A stretch of DNA of 22,406 nt from a virus: IMG/VR virus record IMGVR_UViG_3300037149_000078, positions 1 through 22,406 of that record, one strand, 5' to 3'. Position 1 is the first letter of the stretch. Every line of letters begins with the position of its first letter. This document shows, piece after piece, positions 798 to 20,906 of the stretch. Made by a program: the position numbers and the translations under genes. The notes below the pieces were generated by a model, which saw only the letters and a program-made list of their open reading frames with translations, was not told the origin of the DNA and searched no databases.

Positions 798-811
798 GAA
801 TCGCCTATACT
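783..811 (+). promoter_or_regulatory. candidate leaderless promoter for the alpha-CTD-like gene
   Basis: A good -10 hexamer, TATACT (806-811), ends exactly seven bases before the ATG at 819, so transcription would begin at or next to the start codon. No Shine-Dalgarno sequence precedes the ATG. A poor -35 candidate, TAGTTT (783-788), lies 17 bases upstream. The same seven-base spacing occurs at the Cro-like gene. The promoter overlaps the start of the minus-strand gene at 797. Confidence 0.5.
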
Positions 812-818
812 GTCGCCC

Positions 819-1121
819 ATGCGAGACATTCCCGAAGCCATCCTATCCGCCATGACGGACGACGACCTGATAGCCATGATCGCCTCTCTTCAGAGAGAGC
901 TTACTAAGCGCGCTTACTCGGTCGAAGAAATCGAAAGATCTGTCTCGCTATCCAATAGAACGATCAACGCGCTTAAGAAGTATGGGCACGTCAAATTCCA
1001 TACTGTCGCGGACGTGTTGGCCGCCGGAAAGTCCGAGCTAAGACGGATTCCTGGGCTCGGTAAAATCGGTATCAAAGAAATCGAAGACGAGTTGGCCAAG
1101 TTAGGCGCGCAACTAAAATAG
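819..1121 (+). CDS. stand-alone RNA polymerase alpha C-terminal-domain-like protein (antisense moron)
   Basis: A 100-residue protein on the strand opposite to all surrounding late genes. Residues about 41-100 match the RpoA C-terminal domain fold: LSNRTINALKK, then a middle helix, then RRIPGLGKIGIKEIEDELAKLG. Compared with E. coli alpha (from memory), Arg265, Asn268, Gly296 and Glu302 are kept as R47, N50, G81 and E87, while Lys298 and Ser299 are replaced by I83 and G84. The alpha assembly domain is absent. Residues 1-40 look helical. It could bind promoter DNA, sigma or activators in place of host alpha; that is inference. One row inside it (901-960) is about 43% GC, against about 63% in a neighbouring row, which suits a recently acquired moron. 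An alternative is another helix-hairpin-helix DNA-binding protein. Confidence 0.82.
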   Translation: MRDIPEAILSAMTDDDLIAMIASLQRELTKRAYSVEEIERSVSLSNRTINALKKYGHVKFHTVADVLAAGKSELRRIPGLGKIGIKEIEDELAKLGAQLK

Positions 1122-1124
1122 CGA

Positions 1125-1145
1125 GGCCTCAGACCCCCGGAGGCC
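1125..1145 (-). terminator. weak hairpin at the gp10-like / alpha-CTD junction
   Basis: Perfect 6-bp arms GGCCTC and GAGGCC enclose nine bases. They lie between the converging ends of the gp10-like gene, whose stop lies inside, and the alpha-CTD-like gene. On the minus strand the stem is followed by TCGCTATTTTAG, a poor U-tract, so it may be an inefficient or bidirectional terminator. Confidence 0.35.
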
Positions 1146-3213
1146 GCATTTCGCTGTCCATCGTCCCGCCCATGAGGCTCACGAAGACAGCGTCCGTCAC
1201 GTCCAGCCGCCAGCGCACCCCTTGCGTCCCGCTGAAACCCTGATTGAGAACATAGACGCCGGTGCGCAGCGCGTTGCCTTGCGAGCCAAGAGGCCTCAAA
1301 AGGGGGTTTCCCCAATTCAGGCCGCCGTCCTTGCTCATCGAAACCGCGACGGTCGGATTCTGCTGGTTGGGCGTCGTCGTTAGGTCCGTCACGATCCCGC
1401 CGGACGTGTAGGCGTTCACGAACATCGTCGCCTGAAGGTCGAGATGAGTCGCATCGACTACGGAGATCGTCCAGTTGCCGTTCGCCTCGACCGTTCCCGC
1501 AACTCCCGAGACATTGGCCACATCGCCGGAATTCATCCTCGCCGTCGATATGACCTCGAGTCGGACGACGCCGCCTATGCCTACCTGGGTTCCTATAACC
1601 GTCGTCGAGACGTTCCCGACCGCCTGGCCGACGCCGACGACAAAATCAAAATCAGCACGCGCGACGCGCTGCTGAGACGGGAATTTCTTCACTGGCGCGG
1701 ACTCGACCCGATAGAGCATGGGAGCGCCGTTCTCGGTCGGGTTCGTATCGTCCGGCCAAAGCAGATTGCCCGACTGCGCGTCGCCGACCAGCCATTTCCC
1801 GAAGGCGGGGTGTCCCCCGAGCGCGCGCCATGCGCCATACGCGCCAGCGGTGGTCAGCGACCATCTCTCCGTCCATTTCTGGGTTTGAAGATTGAACTCC
1901 CAAGTCCAATCCGGCGACGCCAAAACCCAGAATTTCTTTCCCGATACGATATAGACGCCGGCCCAGAGCATGTTGCCGGCGCGTATTTCGGCCTCAATCA
2001 AACGGTCCAGATCGGAGGTCGAGACCTTGATCTGCCCCAGTTGGCCCGCCGTCATCCAGTGGACGCCGAAATCCTGCGCGACCCATAGGAGTTCGGAAAA
2101 ACCCGTCTCCCACCCCGCAATGGCGGTCGCCTGCGCAAGCCCAAACTCGAGGACCGCCAAGCGAGAATAGGGGAAGTTCGGCGACGGGTTCGCCGCGTCC
2201 TGCCACACCTCGCAAGAGCCGGTCGTAAACGCGAGAAGCAGGCCGGAGAAAGCCACGCCCCTGAGAAGCTGAACGTCGGCCTTGGCCTGCACAGTGATAT
2301 AGGTCAGGGCGTTCATCGACAGGCTGTTGATGCCGGTCGCGTAAATCTGCCCGGACCCGATCGTGAAGAAGAAATAGCCGTCCTGAAAGCAGACCGAATT
2401 CGGCTCCGGAAGGATCGTGTCCGCCGTGTAGAGGGTCGGGACACCGCCGACGAAAGCGCCTACGGTTCCTGCGCCACCCGTCAGGTCTCCTGACGCTGGG
2501 ACGAACGTAACCGTTTCCGTCCCCGTCGTGACCGCCGCGATGACCGATGTCTGGTTTCCGATCGACCCCTGCTGGCTGATCGAAATGACCGCCCCGGCGA
2601 CCGTCGATGTGATGTTGTTCGCCGCGAGAGTTGCGTTGGCGTTGATCGCCGTGTTCAGCGAGGCCGCAACCGTCGACGCCGACTCGCTGGACCCAAGGGT
2701 GTGACTGACCGAAACCGGGAACGGAGGAGAAAGATAAGGGTTGAGAAAATCCAGCGTGACAATATCGCCGGAATTGAAGGCAGAGCCGCCGATCGTCGCT
2801 GTAGCGGTCGCCGCCGTAACAGGCGCGCTCCCCAGAACATAAGCGCCATTGTCAAGATCGACTGCCACAACATCGGGGACCGGAGACGCTTGGTTTTGCG
2901 CGATGGAGACCGGCTTCGTTCCGGGGAACGGCCCAATGGACGTCACGTCTCCCGAAGAATCAACGGTCGACGCGTCGTTTGACCAGCACTCGTAGGCGAG
3001 GTTCTTGACCGTCAGGCCGCCGCGATAGCCACTGTTCGTGGTAGCCGCATGTTGCGACAGGCCCGCCGAACGGATGGTCTTGAACTTGCGGGCGCGGTCG
3101 TCTCCAAGCTGCTCGACATAGGAGTTGATCAGCCTGCCCTCGCTCTCTTGAGGGTTTTGGCCTGGGAAGGTGGAAAGGGGAAACGGAATGTCGACTGGCG
3201 GCTGGACGGCCAT
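1129..3213 (-). CDS. P22 gp10-like tail hub / packaged-DNA stabilization protein with two inserted domains
   Basis: A 694-residue protein. The N-terminus has GRLINSYVEQLGDDRA and later an AGL element, the opening typical of the P22 gp10 family, which with gp4 plugs the portal after packaging and carries the tail. P22 gp10 is about 470 residues; the excess sits largely in two beta-rich insertions. Residues about 135-250 are Thr/Ala/Ser-rich, including AAVTTGTETVTFVPASG. Residues about 535-612 include GTVEANGNWTISVVDATHLDL and FVNAYTSGG, a module recurring in phage virion proteins (recalled). Between them is the conserved body, including SCEVWQDAANPSPNFPYSR. The start overlaps the gp4-like stop by one base. 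The insertions may be exposed decorations. Confidence 0.8.
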   Translation of the reverse strand: MAVQPPVDIPFPLSTFPGQNPQESEGRLINSYVEQLGDDRARKFKTIRSAGLSQHAATTNSGYRGGLTVKNLAYECWSNDASTVDSSGDVTSIGPFPGTKPVSIAQNQASPVPDVVAVDLDNGAYVLGSAPVTAATATATIGGSAFNSGDIVTLDFLNPYLSPPFPVSVSHTLGSSESASTVAASLNTAINANATLAANNITSTVAGAVISISQQGSIGNQTSVIAAVTTGTETVTFVPASGDLTGGAGTVGAFVGGVPTLYTADTILPEPNSVCFQDGYFFFTIGSGQIYATGINSLSMNALTYITVQAKADVQLLRGVAFSGLLLAFTTGSCEVWQDAANPSPNFPYSRLAVLEFGLAQATAIAGWETGFSELLWVAQDFGVHWMTAGQLGQIKVSTSDLDRLIEAEIRAGNMLWAGVYIVSGKKFWVLASPDWTWEFNLQTQKWTERWSLTTAGAYGAWRALGGHPAFGKWLVGDAQSGNLLWPDDTNPTENGAPMLYRVESAPVKKFPSQQRVARADFDFVVGVGQAVGNVSTTVIGTQVGIGGVVRLEVISTARMNSGDVANVSGVAGTVEANGNWTISVVDATHLDLQATMFVNAYTSGGIVTDLTTTPNQQNPTVAVSMSKDGGLNWGNPLLRPLGSQGNALRTGVYVLNQGFSGTQGVRWRLDVTDAVFVSLMGGTMDSEMRPPGV

Positions 3214-4755: not shown

Positions 4756-5919
4756 TCATGCGTCAGGAATTGCACTGAAAAAACCTGTACCAATTCCCCA
4801 TTCCTTGAAGTTGCCCGCAGGGGTCAGCTTCGCCAGCTTGCCGATGCCGTAGGCCATCTTGATGCCGGCGCCGCGCAGATACTGGTAGTCGTCCTCCTTG
4901 CGGAAAGTCGGCGTGGGCATCTTGCCCCAGCACCAGGCTTGCGCCTGCTGACCGCACATGAAGGCCGGCGCGACCTGAATCCCGCTCGCGCCCGCCGTTT
5001 GATAGGTGACCGGCAGACGGAGCGAGAGTTCCGGAATTTCCCGGATGATCACGCCGTTGTAGAGCAAGTCGCCGTCGACGAAGATCGGGTTCTTCAGGTA
5101 CCCCTGCTGCTCACGAGCGCGGGAGTTCTGATTCGCCGTCTTGATGTCGGCATCGTTTGCCGCGTCGCGGAACTGCTCCTGGCCGACGAACAACACAAAC
5201 CATTCCGTCCCGTTGTCCTTCAACTTGAAGGGCCGGATGCGCGGATTGGCCTTCTTGATCCGGCGCTTCATCGTCATGATGAGCGCGCCGGAGAGGGTCA
5301 TCACGTTCGTGATGTTCGCCATCGTCGAGGCGAAGTTTCCGGCCACGAGGTTCGCCGTGTTCGAGCTGCCGATCTGGATTCGGTCGGTCTGGTCGGTGAT
5401 CCAAGTGTTGCGCTGCGCTGCGGTCGCGGCGTCGAATAGGAGGCCGTTGACCCGCTGGCCGTTGTTCGATCCAAGCCCCGCCGGGGAAGATTGAGACGGC
5501 AGAGCATAGAAGGCGTCGCAGATTTCGTCGCGCTGAAGCTCCTTGCCCCAATCGACGAGCATGGGCTTCGCCTCGGAGAAGAGATCGATCGACGACTTCT
5601 GCTCTTCGGCATTGTTGATGACGACGGCGTTGCGCGCCCAATCGATCCAAAGCCGCATGCCATAGTTGTCGAGCGCTTCTTCATTGCCGATCAGCGTCCC
5701 GGAGGCGATAGCGGTCGCCTGAAGGCGGGCCATCAGCGGGACGTTGATCTGCTCGCCGCCCTGCTTCCCGCCCTTGTCGAGATCGGGAATGACGCGGATG
5801 ATCGAATTGATGTCCGTCCCCATGTAGGGGGAGAACAGGTTCTCACGCACGTATTCGCGGAAGATTTCCTTTCGGAAGACGATGAGTTTGTTGTTGACTT
5901 GGGTTACGGTCGCGGCCAT
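4756..5919 (-). CDS. major capsid protein, N4-gp56 / DUF4043-like family
   Basis: A 387-residue protein, a usual length for the family. The N-terminal pattern is diagnostic as I recall it: FRKEIFREYVRENLFSPYMG, then DLDKGGKQGGEQINVPLMAR, then a GNEEALDNYGMRLWIDWARN block and AKPMLVDWGKELQRDEI. These correspond to the N-arm and the start of the HK97-like fold. It would form the icosahedral shell on the scaffold encoded just upstream. AAAGGAG lies seven bases before the ATG, one of the strongest ribosome binding sites here, as expected for the most abundant virion protein. Stem-loops flank the gene on both sides. Confidence 0.85.
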   Translation of the reverse strand: MAATVTQVNNKLIVFRKEIFREYVRENLFSPYMGTDINSIIRVIPDLDKGGKQGGEQINVPLMARLQATAIASGTLIGNEEALDNYGMRLWIDWARNAVVINNAEEQKSSIDLFSEAKPMLVDWGKELQRDEICDAFYALPSQSSPAGLGSNNGQRVNGLLFDAATAAQRNTWITDQTDRIQIGSSNTANLVAGNFASTMANITNVMTLSGALIMTMKRRIKKANPRIRPFKLKDNGTEWFVLFVGQEQFRDAANDADIKTANQNSRAREQQGYLKNPIFVDGDLLYNGVIIREIPELSLRLPVTYQTAGASGIQVAPAFMCGQQAQAWCWGKMPTPTFRKEDDYQYLRGAGIKMAYGIGKLAKLTPAGNFKEWGIGTGFFSAIPDA

Positions 5920-5939
5920 AGCCCTGCTCCTTTCGGGTT

Positions 5940-5976
5940 GCCGCGGCCCCTAGTTCCTTAAGGGGAATCGCGCGGC
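5940..5976 (-). other. nested stem-loop between scaffold stop and capsid ribosome binding site
   Basis: Outer arms at 5940-5945 and 5971-5976 (GCCGCG / CGCGGC) enclose inner arms 5947-5951 and 5961-5965 (CCCCT / AGGGG). The structure begins at the base next to the scaffold stop and ends about 20 bases before the capsid ATG. There is no U-tract. A processing or stabilizing element that raises capsid over scaffold output is a reasonable inference. Confidence 0.55.
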
Positions 5977-7050
5977 TTAAGTTGACCAAGCCGAATTGAA
6001 CGTGGCGCTCTCTGAACCATCGAATATTTCGAGGTCATTCGGCGCGCGCTGATTGCTCCCCGGCGTTCTCGCAAGCGAGTTCGGGAGCTTCACAGCGGTT
6101 CGCGGTCGGCCCTGATCGCCGGTCATCGCGTCGCTCCGCAGCGAGGCGAGGAGTTCCTTGCGAAACTCCGGATCGGCCATCAGTTCTGTGCGGGTTTTTT
6201 CGGCGAGGCGGGCTTTGTAGCCGTCGAGGTCGTCACCGACCTCGCGGATCGCCTGGTTGCGCTTGTGCCACAACACGATCGCCTCGCCGGGATTCGGAGA
6301 GGCTTCGAGCCGTTGGATAAGCTGGACAGTTTCAGGGCTCTTCGGCAGGGTTTCGATCGCCTTCCATGCGTTCGAAAAGGCCTCGCCGTGACGGGCCCGA
6401 GCCGACTCGATGCTTGCATTGACCTCACGGTCGCGCATCTGCTTTTGGAAAGCGTCGAACTTTTCCGCCACCGATTTGTTGAGATGTTCGGCGAAAGCGT
6501 TGGGATCTTCGAAGAGGTCAGGGGCCTTGGGCTTGGCCGTGTCTTCCGGCTTCGGCGCCGGCTGGCGCTGTTGCAGCGCAAGCAAAGCGTCGAACTTGGC
6601 GTTGAGATCGGAGACCGCCTTTGCGTTGGCCGCCTTCTCAGCGTCGAGTTGAGCCTTGAGCGTATCGCGTTCGGCAATCGCCGCCCGCGCGCGCTCAGCC
6701 TCCTCGCGCAACCTTCCCGGGGGGATACGCCCTTGCGGTTCGGTCTTGTCCGGTTCGGCAGGCTTGTCCTTGGCTTCCGCTTCTGCTTTCGCCTTGGCCT
6801 CTACCGCGTCAGGATTCTCCGGCTCGTCCTTCGGATGAGCGTCGTCGTCCGTACCGTTATCGGGCTCGTCCGGTTCGTTCTCCTCGTCCTCCGGTTCGTG
6901 CTGACCCTCGAGCCCGTCGCCCATGGTCTCAAGACCACGATCGCCGGTTTCGTCGAGCGTCAGCTCTTCCTTGCCGAAGCCTTCCGCGAAGATTTCCTTA
7001 TCGGTCCCAATGATCGCATCCCGAAGGATGTCGTCCTCTGCTTCCGCCAT
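5977..7050 (-). CDS. capsid scaffolding protein
   Basis: A 357-residue, very acidic protein placed directly between the portal region and the major capsid gene, the standard scaffold position. Residues about 50-80 are nearly all Glu, Asp, Pro and Asn. Residues about 82-100 form an Ala/Lys/Glu repeat. Residues about 110-165 are predicted coiled coil (LREEAERARAAIAERDTLKA and similar). Helical segments follow, and the C-terminus is hydrophilic. Scaffolds diverge in sequence, so the call rests on composition, length and synteny. It would nucleate procapsid assembly and then leave. AGAGA stands about ten bases before the ATG. Confidence 0.8.
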   Translation of the reverse strand: MAEAEDDILRDAIIGTDKEIFAEGFGKEELTLDETGDRGLETMGDGLEGQHEPEDEENEPDEPDNGTDDDAHPKDEPENPDAVEAKAKAEAEAKDKPAEPDKTEPQGRIPPGRLREEAERARAAIAERDTLKAQLDAEKAANAKAVSDLNAKFDALLALQQRQPAPKPEDTAKPKAPDLFEDPNAFAEHLNKSVAEKFDAFQKQMRDREVNASIESARARHGEAFSNAWKAIETLPKSPETVQLIQRLEASPNPGEAIVLWHKRNQAIREVGDDLDGYKARLAEKTRTELMADPEFRKELLASLRSDAMTGDQGRPRTAVKLPNSLARTPGSNQRAPNDLEIFDGSESATFNSAWST

Positions 7051-7167: not shown

Positions 7168-7241
7168 TGGAGCGGGCAGGGAGAATCGAACTCCCATCCT
7201 CAGTTTGGAAGACTGTGGCTCTGCCTTTGAGCTACACCCGC
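7168..7241 (-). tRNA. tRNA-Gly (anticodon TCC), CCA encoded
   Basis: A complete cloverleaf of 74 bases including CCA. The acceptor strands are GCGGGTG and TGCCCGC (two G-T pairs). The D arm is GCTC/GAGC. The anticodon loop CTTCCAA carries TCC. The T arm is GGGAG-TTCGATT-CTCCC, the discriminator is T, then CCA. The only flaw is an A-A opposition at the first anticodon-stem pair. It reads GGA codons and would support late translation. It lies inside the late operon between portal and scaffold genes, and its first ten bases form the end of the overlapping 65-residue gene. No attachment site is evident beside it. Confidence 0.93.
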
Positions 7242-10041: not shown

Positions 10042-11394
10042 TCACCACCCGTTCTTCTCGGAGACTTTCTCGAATTGCCTCTGGCTGATCTTGCCAGATT
10101 TCAGCGCGCTCTCTGCCTGCGTCTGCTCTTTCGAGGCTGGCTGATCGGCAGTGTTGCCCAGCGTCTCTTTCAGGTCCGCCAACGCCGCCTCAAGCGCCTC
10201 GGGTTGGCTCTTGATGTCGAACGCCTCGACCGTCTTGGCGATCTCGGTCACCTTGTCGATCGCCTCCTTGGCGGTATCGCCATAGCCGACCACAGCGCCG
10301 AGGAACGGCATTTTGTTGGCCTGCGGGATGACGTAGCGCGAGCCTTCGTACTCAGTGAAATACCGCAGCTTGATGTTGGCCGCGTGTTCCTCTGGAAAAC
10401 TCACCTTGACCCAGGACTCGGCCAGCGCGTCGGAGAGGATGATGAGTTCCGCCCCCCATTTGCCGGCGAACTCGGGGTCAACCAGAATGCCCTCGGCGCC
10501 GTACCAGATGACCTCGCCGAGGTTTTCGACGATGAGCTGGTAGAGTTCGCCAGGAGGAGACCCGGAGCGGCAGCAGGGGTCAATCAGATAGTCGTGGCCG
10601 TCCTCCGTGCTTCTGATCTCCGTCGAGAGGAAGCCTCGATACTGGTATTTTTTCAACTGCGGCGAGAGCTTGTCGTTCACCCCGCGCACGGCAGGGGGAA
10701 TTCTGCTGTATTTCATCTGCTTGGCGACGTAGGCCGTGTCTTTGGCCTCGACCCCAACCAGGCAAGAAGCCGGGAACTGGCCATCGATCGTATAGCCGTC
10801 ATATCCGACCTCAATGGCCGGACCCGTGTTGTCCTCGACGATGAACTCCATCAGATCCGCTTTCGGCCCCAACTTAAAATCGATCGAGTCCAGCTGGCCT
10901 TCGACAGCCGCATAATTCGGCGCGTGGAATGTCTCCATGTCGCCGCGCGTGCGGCTGATCTTCACATACTGATCGTCGTGTTTCTTGAGGTAGGATCGAA
11001 GCTTCTCAATTCCGACCATTGTCTTATACGGGCCGACCTCGATCCCGAGCCTCGTGCTGATCTCTTTCGACTTCGCGCGGTCGATCTCCATTTCCGATCC
11101 GCCGCGGCAGCCCCAAACCAGCTTGCCTAGCCCAACGAGGTATTGCTGAACGTCTCCTTCATAGACGTCCGGGAAGACGAAAATGTCCACGTCATCAAGA
11201 TGAGGCCACGGGCTGTCGACGCGTTCAATCCCCTTCACGCCGACGCCGATCATCTGCAATTGAGAGGTCGGGAAGCCGGTCACCCACGGGCAGTAGTAGA
11301 GAACCCTGCCGAAATGAGCCGATAGCGTCACGGCGAGACTTACGAATAAGCCATTATCCCAGACCAAGCACGTCTTTGTTTTCAGTCTAGGCAT
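10042..11394 (-). CDS. ATP-grasp superfamily ligase-like protein
   Basis: A 450-residue protein with the domain order of PurD-type ATP-grasp enzymes. A pre-ATP-grasp Rossmann-like part is residues about 1-100 (LVWDNGLFVSLAV...FPDVYEGD). An ATP-grasp core covers about 105-285, with DRAKSKEISTRLGIEVGPYK, QYVKI (K145 as candidate ATP lysine), FLSTEIR (E259) and YLIDPCCRSGSPPGE (D272, R276). A GARS-like C-terminal strand set includes GAVVGYGDTAKEAIDKV. Such enzymes join a carboxylate to an amine through an acyl-phosphate; the substrate cannot be read. Residues 432-447 form a SHOCT-like tail shared with two small neighbours. It stands between terminase and portal genes, where simple P22-like phages have nothing. 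A true purine enzyme is unlikely in this setting. Confidence 0.62.
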   Translation of the reverse strand: MPRLKTKTCLVWDNGLFVSLAVTLSAHFGRVLYYCPWVTGFPTSQLQMIGVGVKGIERVDSPWPHLDDVDIFVFPDVYEGDVQQYLVGLGKLVWGCRGGSEMEIDRAKSKEISTRLGIEVGPYKTMVGIEKLRSYLKKHDDQYVKISRTRGDMETFHAPNYAAVEGQLDSIDFKLGPKADLMEFIVEDNTGPAIEVGYDGYTIDGQFPASCLVGVEAKDTAYVAKQMKYSRIPPAVRGVNDKLSPQLKKYQYRGFLSTEIRSTEDGHDYLIDPCCRSGSPPGELYQLIVENLGEVIWYGAEGILVDPEFAGKWGAELIILSDALAESWVKVSFPEEHAANIKLRYFTEYEGSRYVIPQANKMPFLGAVVGYGDTAKEAIDKVTEIAKTVEAFDIKSQPEALEAALADLKETLGNTADQPASKEQTQAESALKSGKISQRQFEKVSEKNGW

Positions 11395-15249: not shown

Positions 15250-15960
15250 CTAACTGTCAATGTGCTCAAGATCGCGCGCGTCGACTTCAGTGGGGGTTTT
15301 TCCCCCGAACAACTCGACGGCGATTTTCACGCGCCCGGAAGCGTTTATTTCCTCAATGATCGCGGCGAATTGATCGAACGGACCCCCCTTCACGCGAACT
15401 GAATCGCCGCGTTTGAGAGGCTTCTGGTGAGGCGCCCATCTCGCGCTCTTGACATCGAAGTCGAATTTACCTTTCACTTCCGCAAGATTGATCTTGTCTA
15501 TTTCGGCCTCGACGAGCTTATGCTTTGGGGGTCTGAGCACATCGATCACCCTATCGCAATCGAATCGATCGAGCTCTCGGCTCGTCTCGCCGACGAACAG
15601 ATAGCGGCCGAACACGGGAACAATGTACGTGCGGCGAACGCGCTTGCCCGCGACACTTCGAGCTCGGAACGCAACAAATCGCTTCAACGGCAAATAGACC
15701 AGAAATCCGATCCTGCTCAGCACCTCCGCGACCCCATGCTCATCCCCGGAACGGACGCAGGCCACTACCCAGCGAACTCCTCGGGCATCAATCCGCTTGG
15801 GCGTGTAGGTTTCCTTGCGCTCCTTGACAGCCTTGGCTAACTCGCTGAGGGCGAGCCGGGATAACGGACGTGGCCCTCGAGAAGGCGCGTAGCGTGTCAC
15901 GCCTTCAGCTTGGCCCTCGCTCTTCCGTTTGAGAGTTTCGATCTCAGTTGTGCGTGACAT
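15250..15960 (-). CDS. phage NusG-like transcription (anti)termination factor
   Basis: A 236-residue protein with NusG architecture. A basic N-terminal extension (1-60) is followed by an NGN domain (about 63-145: VRWVVACVRSGDEHGVAEVL, GFLVYLPLKR, VPVFGRYLFVG) and a KOW domain (about 182-233: LKRGDSVRVKGGPFDQFAAI, VELFGGKTPTEV). NGN domains bind the clamp of RNA polymerase and make it processive; specialised paralogues such as RfaH act on selected operons. Host NusG is about 180 residues, so the extension is extra. Standing at the end of the early operon and just before the late leader, it probably lets polymerase run the 15-kb late operon, including past the internal hairpins. That target is inference. 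Confidence 0.85.
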   Translation of the reverse strand: MSRTTEIETLKRKSEGQAEGVTRYAPSRGPRPLSRLALSELAKAVKERKETYTPKRIDARGVRWVVACVRSGDEHGVAEVLSRIGFLVYLPLKRFVAFRARSVAGKRVRRTYIVPVFGRYLFVGETSRELDRFDCDRVIDVLRPPKHKLVEAEIDKINLAEVKGKFDFDVKSARWAPHQKPLKRGDSVRVKGGPFDQFAAIIEEINASGRVKIAVELFGGKTPTEVDARDLEHIDS

Positions 15961-18242: not shown

Positions 18243-18577
18243 CCCGCTGCCCTTCGAACTAGACCCCATCGCTCAAGGACCGCGATCGGTTCATCCCTGC
18301 CGTGGCTGATAGCCCAGGGAACGCCCCACCTTTCGCAGATGCCCAGAATGTGAAGCTGGGCCTTCGATGGCGCGCCGGTGAGCGTCTTTAGCTCGATGAA
18401 GCCGACGCCTTGAGGGCCGATGCAAAGAAGATCCGGGAGGCCCTTGGTGAGGCCCGCCTGCCCCGCAGCCCGCATATTGGGGATCGTGGCCAAGAGCGTC
18501 CCCGGAACGCCCAGCGCGGTCCAGTGGGCTAATACAGCCGAATGAATGGCCTTCTCGGATAGCGCCCCCACTTTCAT
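18239..18577 (-). CDS. VRR-NUC domain nuclease
   Basis: A 112-residue protein that is almost entirely one VRR-NUC domain, of the PD-(D/E)xK fold. Residues are E8 in the first helix, then GLTKGLPDLLCI (D49), GFIELKT (E62, K64), and PSKAQLHILGICERWG (Q74) closing the fold. Such stand-alone nucleases resemble Holliday-junction or structure-specific nucleases and occur in phage replication modules. It would act on branched or flapped DNA. Start and stop both overlap neighbours by four bases. Confidence 0.87.
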   Translation of the reverse strand: MKVGALSEKAIHSAVLAHWTALGVPGTLLATIPNMRAAGQAGLTKGLPDLLCIGPQGVGFIELKTLTGAPSKAQLHILGICERWGVPWAISHGRDEPIAVLERWGLVRRAAG

Positions 18578-19200
18578 CCCGCCAGCGCTTCCTTGATCGC
18601 CTCGACATCGGCGCGCAGCGCGTCGTCCGTGAGGAGAAGCGCTTCGATTTTGCGGATGCCGTGCAAAATCGTGGTATGATCTCTATTCCCTATCCTTCGC
18701 CCGATTTCGGGAAGAGAGCGAACGGTAAGCGTCTTGGCTAAATACATCGCGATGTGACGTGGCATGCACGCTCCGGCTGTTCGCCGCGAGCCGATTATAT
18801 CGCCGAAGCTGACTTGGAAATGAGCGGCAGATGCTTCGATAATTTTATCAATTCTGCGATAGGCACTAGCCAAAGAGACCGACTCGCGCACTTCATCCAT
18901 AACGCGATCGAGAAGTTCGTCTTGCTTATTGATCCGGATCTCTTGTGACTTGACGGTCGCCCGCAAAAACTCAACCTCGGCAGTCAACCCCGCAATAATC
19001 GCCTCGATCCTGTCTGGAAGGGAATTGGAAGGTGCCAAGCGCTGCGGCGAAGCAACAATGACGGCGCTCACGTATCTCGCTCTGCGCTCCTGGGCTCTCC
19101 GCTGCATTTCCTCGAGCGTGCGCGGGCCGCCAGGGTCCAGCACTGCGGCGGGGATCGAGGGCGATGCGCGGCCCATCGTGAGCGATGAGGGACCGTTCAT
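18574..19200 (-). CDS. DnaA domain IV-type DNA-binding protein
   Basis: A 208-residue protein. Residues about 117-190 are a DnaA C-terminal domain: an IDKIIEASAAHFQVSFGDII helix, GSRRTAGACMPRHIAMYLAK, LPEIGRRIGNRDHTTILHGI. The last includes the RDHTT signature that contacts DnaA boxes. The AAA+ ATPase is missing. Residues 62-105 form a coiled coil that may make a dimer. Host DnaA is about 450-500 residues, so this is not a fragment but a separate design. It may mark a phage origin, compete with host DnaA, or act as a regulator. It opens the replication part of the operon by an ATGA overlap. Confidence 0.85.
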   Translation of the reverse strand: MNGPSSLTMGRASPSIPAAVLDPGGPRTLEEMQRRAQERRARYVSAVIVASPQRLAPSNSLPDRIEAIIAGLTAEVEFLRATVKSQEIRINKQDELLDRVMDEVRESVSLASAYRRIDKIIEASAAHFQVSFGDIIGSRRTAGACMPRHIAMYLAKTLTVRSLPEIGRRIGNRDHTTILHGIRKIEALLLTDDALRADVEAIKEALAG

Positions 19201-20627: not shown

Positions 20628-20906
20628 ATGGCGGTCGATCCAAGCGAAAGAGAGTATAGAAAAGCGCTCGTGGCGCGCGTCAAGGCGGCGCGAAAGGCGC
20701 ACGGATGGTCTCAGGAGTTCGTCGCTACCTCCCTCTCAATTCCCCTACCCACATATAAGAAATATGAGAGTCGGACGCCGATTCCTCATTACTGGATTGA
20801 GAGATTTTGCATTCTTACGGGGACCGATCTGTATTATTTGATCACCGGCCATCAAAAGCGCCCTCACGCGGAGACCGTCGAAATGGACGACAGCGCCCAG
20901 CGATAG
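20628..20906 (+). CDS. XRE-family phage repressor (CI-like), compact
   Basis: A 92-residue protein with one XRE helix-turn-helix: ALVARVKAARKAHGWSQEFV, then SLSIPLPTYKKYESRTPIPH with WIERFCILTGTDLYYLITG closing the five-helix bundle (about residues 10-72). No S24/LexA-like self-cleaving domain follows, so RecA-driven cleavage is not expected. It is encoded between the two outward early promoters, the topology of the lambda immunity region, and would hold both shut by the GACNNATTGTC sites. No Shine-Dalgarno site precedes the ATG. A possible -10 GACAAT ends at 20621. Induction may need an antirepressor. Confidence 0.78.
   Translation: MAVDPSEREYRKALVARVKAARKAHGWSQEFVATSLSIPLPTYKKYESRTPIPHYWIERFCILTGTDLYYLITGHQKRPHAETVEMDDSAQR

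Follow-up and report, generated by a model that had tools for sequence, protein, structure and literature searches.

Genomic context of the antisense gene

The window, by which we mean the whole stretch of 22,406 bases that was analyzed, is an IMG/VR virus record of a phage that infects soil alphaproteobacteria. The identified phage genes from position 1 to about 20.5 kb, including those for terminase, portal, capsid and the head-closure protein Hc3, lie on the minus strand, with the exception of one intact open reading frame that starts with ATG, comprises 100 codons and encodes the 100-residue protein P0002 (Table 1). Plus-strand genes start again at position 20,628, where the first is a repressor-like HTH gene. 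The description of P0002 in the original prediction as the sole plus-strand gene among some 20 kb of minus-strand genes is thus borne out, as is its richness in AT (51.0% GC versus 59.9% for the whole window). The prediction had also placed the gene in a tail operon; the antisense position within a late operon holds, but the exact place is the head-completion end, next to the gene for Hc3 (phrog_578).

Table 1. Features at the α-CTD locus and its flanks (window coordinates).
Feature	Position	Strand	Basis
Late gene, 72-residue protein kept in relatives (flank)	579–797	−	relatives compared
331-nt insert between the Hc3 and 72-residue genes, which abut in most relatives	798–1128		locus comparison
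AGGCG, Shine-Dalgarno-like site of the 72-residue gene, within the insert	802–806	−	sequence
TATACT, possible −10 box, 7 nt 5' of the ATG (leaderless spacing)	806–811	+	sequence; missed by consensus scan
Stand-alone α-CTD open reading frame (P0002)	819–1121	+	ORF list and profile matches
Predicted long N-terminal helix, residues 14–45, with acidic VEEIE	858–953	+	AlphaFold2 model; alignment
RNA_pol_A_CTD domain, residues 41–93	939–1097	+	PF03118 match
Arg47 to Asn50, aligned with α Arg265 to Asn268 (DNA minor-groove contacts)	957–968	+	alignment
GGCCTC-9-GAGGCC inverted repeat over the Hc3 stop codon and insert end; weak terminator candidate	1125–1145		minus-strand hits; z −1.9 plus, +0.27 minus
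Late gene, head closure Hc3 (phrog_578) (flank)	1129–3213	−	phage family match

A promoter of its own, which had likewise been claimed for the gene, did not hold up. The TATACT hexamer upstream of the start codon has no acceptable −35 element, and a σ70 consensus scan returned a single site, at 1092–1119 inside the reading frame, and none at the gene start. A strong promoter is thus not supported by the signals in the DNA. The inverted repeat at the opposite end of the insert was considered as a terminator and is weak (z values in Table 1).

No integrase gene was recognized in the window; the phage is regarded as temperate on the basis of the repressor-like gene and of two relatives found within bacterial assemblies, one being a Rhizobiales MAG and the other that of Bradyrhizobium sp. 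YR681. Several other minus-strand genes were noted. A NusG-like protein (15250–15960; PF02357, 23.4 bits versus a cut-off of 22.2 bits, with a weak KOW match) heads the late genes and is a candidate late-operon antiterminator. The replication region encodes a DnaA C-terminal DNA-binding domain (18574–19200; Bac_DnaA_C, 86.7 bits). A tRNA-Gly (TCC) lies in the late operon at 7168–7241, between the gene at 5977–7050 and the portal gene, and a 450-residue protein with no Pfam match, ATP-grasp-like by eye, is encoded between the terminase and portal genes (10042–11394).

P0002 is a free α-CTD-like protein

Residues 41–93 of P0002 match the C-terminal domain of the RNA polymerase α subunit (RpoA), RNA_pol_A_CTD (PF03118), with 30.6 bits and an E-value of 2.8e-7 in a profile search of 24,736 families, above the curated cut-off of 23.8 bits; a six-frame search of the window record returned the match as well (E 8.5e-9). 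Only the C-terminal domain was matched in Pfam and NCBIfam, and the α N-terminal domain is absent, in agreement with the original prediction of an RpoA C-terminal domain standing alone in a 100-residue protein. In NCBIfam, RpoA models score best and weak matches to HHH-containing families come after them; the PDB sequence matches are RpoA apart from two RAD51 entries. The lone domain is counted as phage-encoded because it lies in an IMG/VR virus record that carries terminase, portal, capsid and head-closure genes.

The second-ranked Pfam match, HHH_5 with 21.4 bits, together with RAD51-type domains lower in the list of similar folds, would fit a DNA-binding protein of the helix-hairpin-helix type that plays no part in the initiation of transcription. 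HHH_5 stays below its cut-off of 27 bits, however, and the Pfam, NCBIfam and PDB comparisons are each headed by RpoA profiles or structures, so an unrelated helix-hairpin-helix family is not favored and we consider this explanation improbable. A chance reading frame was rejected on the E-value of the domain and on a homologue in a related phage, L002 (described below). Recent capture of the domain from the host was rejected as well, given the identity of about 30–35% to RpoA α-CTDs and a best PDB match to Thermus. The identity of the product as a free α-CTD-like protein is therefore well supported, while its mechanism is one that we infer.

Structure model and conserved residues

AlphaFold2 models were built from a two-sequence alignment of the window and L002 proteins (pLDDT 78 and 68.5, respectively; pTM about 0.5), and predict an α-CTD fold for P0002, as anticipated. 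In a Foldseek comparison with the PDB, ranks 1–23 for the window model are all RpoA or α-CTD structures, and the best 50 rows for the L002 model are likewise RpoA or α-CTD, except for 1y88. Superposition of the window model on α-CTDs with VIA-align gave Z values of 5.6–6.5, with about 60 residues aligned at about 2 Å in the case of isolated domains; RAD51-type domains rank next below. Because these Z values are middling, the assignment of the fold leans on its agreement with the sequence profile.

The residue roles considered here are those of the E. coli α-CTD. In the alignment, P0002 keeps the equivalents of Arg265, Asn268, Gly296 and Glu302, whereas Lys298 is replaced by Ile and Ser299 by Gly, in agreement with the residues kept and lost in the original prediction. 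P0002 thus has Arg265 (its Arg47), which is central to DNA contact, but not all of the residues through which the E. coli domain contacts DNA (R265, N268, G296, K298, S299 and E302). Loss of Lys298 and Ser299 suggests a weaker or altered contact with DNA, so that contacts with partners may outweigh DNA binding. The predicted N-terminal helix, modeled with moderate confidence, contains a VEEIE sequence that can be aligned with the 261 determinant of RpoA, and position 261 is acidic in both the window and L002 proteins. The retained Arg265 and the acidic 261-type patch are suggestive of minor-groove contacts and of contacts with sigma or an activator.

P0002 thus shares with the RpoA C-terminal domain (PF03118; E. 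coli 1lb2, Thermus 1doq) the profile, the fold, Arg265/Asn268/Gly296/Glu302 and the acidic patch. It differs from that domain by the absence of Lys298 and Ser299 and by insertions of four and three residues, and from complete RpoA in having an extra helix in place of the α N-terminal domain.

The insert in related phages and a second antisense copy

Relatives carrying Hc3 and capsid homologues number in the dozens in IMG/VR, and the capsid relatives among named phages are distant (at most 34% identity). The original prediction called for a comparison of such relatives, which shows that the gene is rare and that its site is empty in most of them. Both flanking genes were found in 77 locus entries, some of which are two views of one contig; the gap between them is at most 50 nt in 64 of these, versus 331 nt in the window. 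In L147, for example, the insert is missing and the start of the 72-residue gene overlaps the Hc3 stop codon. The insert of the window holds the α-CTD gene together with the Shine-Dalgarno-like AGGCG of the downstream 72-residue gene.

A second antisense copy was found in a single relative, L002 (IMGVR_UViG_3300018040_000048). There, the Hc3/72-residue junction is closed and the α-CTD gene is placed after the next late gene, as an open reading frame for 138 residues (5757–6173 including the stop codon) with a GC content of 43.7% versus about 60%. The domain scores 33.5 bits in the genomic and 32.6 bits in the protein search, both above the PF03118 cut-off, and the PDB relatives of the protein are RpoA only. 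The L002 protein thus resembles that of the window in its origin from a related phage, its antisense and AT-rich gene and its domain match. It differs in its junction, in a C-terminal tail, and in the residues that it keeps, as Lys298 is present and Asn268, Ser299 and Glu302 are lost. With 29% identity between the two proteins, a common function is not assured. Profile searches of six-frame translations of the related-phage loci gave no further convincing copies, and among 50 whole records PF03118 was matched in one, L002.

Inserts at late junctions of other relatives are on the same strand where readable, and none of the readable ones is an antisense α-CTD. Two of them, in L040 (7160–7672) and L045 (3665–4171), are HNH homing endonuclease-like by eye, which indicates that late junctions accept mobile genes. 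In L067, an AT-rich gap (1244–1510; 49% GC) between the 72-residue gene and the next late gene contains no reading frame of at least 30 residues and is possibly a decayed insert.

Weak promoter signals and rarity among relatives could also mean that the window gene is an unexpressed or decaying insert. The reading frame is intact, however, its domain match is significant, and an intact antisense homologue exists at another junction, which makes decay very unlikely. That one phage group has two intact α-CTD genes, each AT-rich and antisense, at separate junctions is less well accounted for by chance than by a mobile cargo gene, and the copy in L002 speaks for a genuine gene of this kind, a so-called moron.

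Free α-CTDs in other phages and genomes

The original prediction knew of no named phage system of this kind. At the level of annotation this does not stand, as phage free α-CTDs turn out to be scattered widely and often so named, by automatic annotation only; it does stand in that the open-access literature searched gave no study of what any of these proteins does. A scan of viral contigs with a Rhizobiales RpoA α-CTD gave 24 IMG/VR loci, in all of which the domain-bearing frame spans 98–207 residues from the first ATG or GTG, leaving no room for an α N-terminal domain. BFVD also holds phage proteins named for the RNA polymerase α C-terminal domain. These IMG/VR and BFVD proteins are, like P0002, lone α-CTDs on phage contigs. 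In contrast to the window, their genes belong mostly to same-strand gene runs, and the proteins are nearer to RpoA, partly because RpoA peptides served as search patterns. Arg265 is present in 25 of 25 aligned free α-CTDs, most of which were retrieved with RpoA-derived patterns.

Among named phages, QDP42789.1 of the Bacillus phage Goe8 (Herelleviridae; 'RNA polymerase subunit alpha', 210 residues) resembles P0002 in carrying a C-terminal α-CTD (78 bits) and no match to the α N-terminal domain, but has a long unrelated N-terminal part and is encoded near the genome end with neighbors on the same strand. Gp24 of Atraxi and gp26 of Mazun ('DNA binding protein'), both Microbacterium phages, and gp68 of the Mycobacterium phage Zenteno07 are small proteins with, as in the window, an α-CTD above the cut-off; their genes are collinear with small neighbors, unlike the antisense gene in the late operon. 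No close homologue of P0002 was found in INPHARED phages, plasmids or viral contigs, nor in 199 genomes of one family (that of G051) in a search that lacked a positive control. Across 71 genomes from one order (that of G052), all 68 PF03118 matches lie in open frames of at least 339 residues, consistent with RpoA. At least one free α-CTD, of 97 residues, was among the matches listed for 297 genomes: it is encoded among small genes in a genome of the latter order (L179:1405–1698, plus strand; 52.8 bits) and keeps R265, N268, G296, K298, S299 and E302.

In nearly all phage free α-CTDs the domain is extended at the N or C terminus by additional parts, which differ in kind. Together with the predicted long helix of P0002, this would suit an adaptor to a regulator of the phage or the host: the helix would dimerise or hold a partner, the α-CTD fold would contact DNA or sigma, and the protein would work as a small transcription factor in its own right instead of competing with host α. 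An N-terminal motif common to the window and L002 proteins looks good by eye, but the similarity is not significant (178 of 3000 shuffles reach it), which counts against the adaptor. We regard this role as possible, with perhaps one chance in four, and place it second.

Proposed function

The reading ranked first, at about even odds, is that the gene is accessory cargo on the lysogen side, whose product competes with or modulates the host α-CTD at some promoters. What has been observed in its favor is the intact reading frame, the α-CTD profile and predicted fold, the empty sites in relatives and the second antisense copy in L002. The moron would have been inserted backwards into the late operon, bringing an α-CTD with a helical N-terminal extension. 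Since the gene shares its strand with the repressor-like gene, expression in the lysogen is plausible, and transcription may take place mainly there, when the late genes are silent. Lacking the α N-terminal domain, the product could not join the polymerase core as α does and would act in trans. Its Arg265 face would occupy the minor groove of AT-rich DNA close to promoters, and sigma region 4 or an activator would possibly be contacted through the acidic 261-type patch. Overall, the protein would compete with the host α-CTD, or stand in for it locally, at a subset of promoters.

The host α-CTD is a known target of binding, modification and cleavage by phages, and T4 modifies Arg265 of the host α. 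Rac of phiKMV-like phages also attacks host α (PMC7552054). The cargo position and lysogen-side strand would, along with these precedents, also suit a decoy that protects against superinfecting phages or other proteins targeting the host α-CTD, for example by modification or cleavage. With an identity of only about 30–35% to host α, a good mimic is less likely, and we hold the decoy to be improbable, well behind the competition or modulation proposed above.

If a phage does supply its own detached α-CTD, this would be another way to steer the host polymerase. The class appears broad, as a single RpoA-based scan gave 24 IMG/VR contigs and several named phages have such proteins, and free α-CTDs are small and easy to express, which makes regulation of promoters in trans directly testable. 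The antisense pair of the window and L002 may also serve as an instance of cargo on the lysogen side within a late operon, and that operon may be read under a phage NusG-like factor. It is tempting to speculate, although we think it rather less probable than the reading for the window gene itself, that temperate phages of Rhizobiales carry antisense, detached α-CTD cargo that rewires transcription of the lysogenic host and belongs to a wide class acting on promoters in trans.
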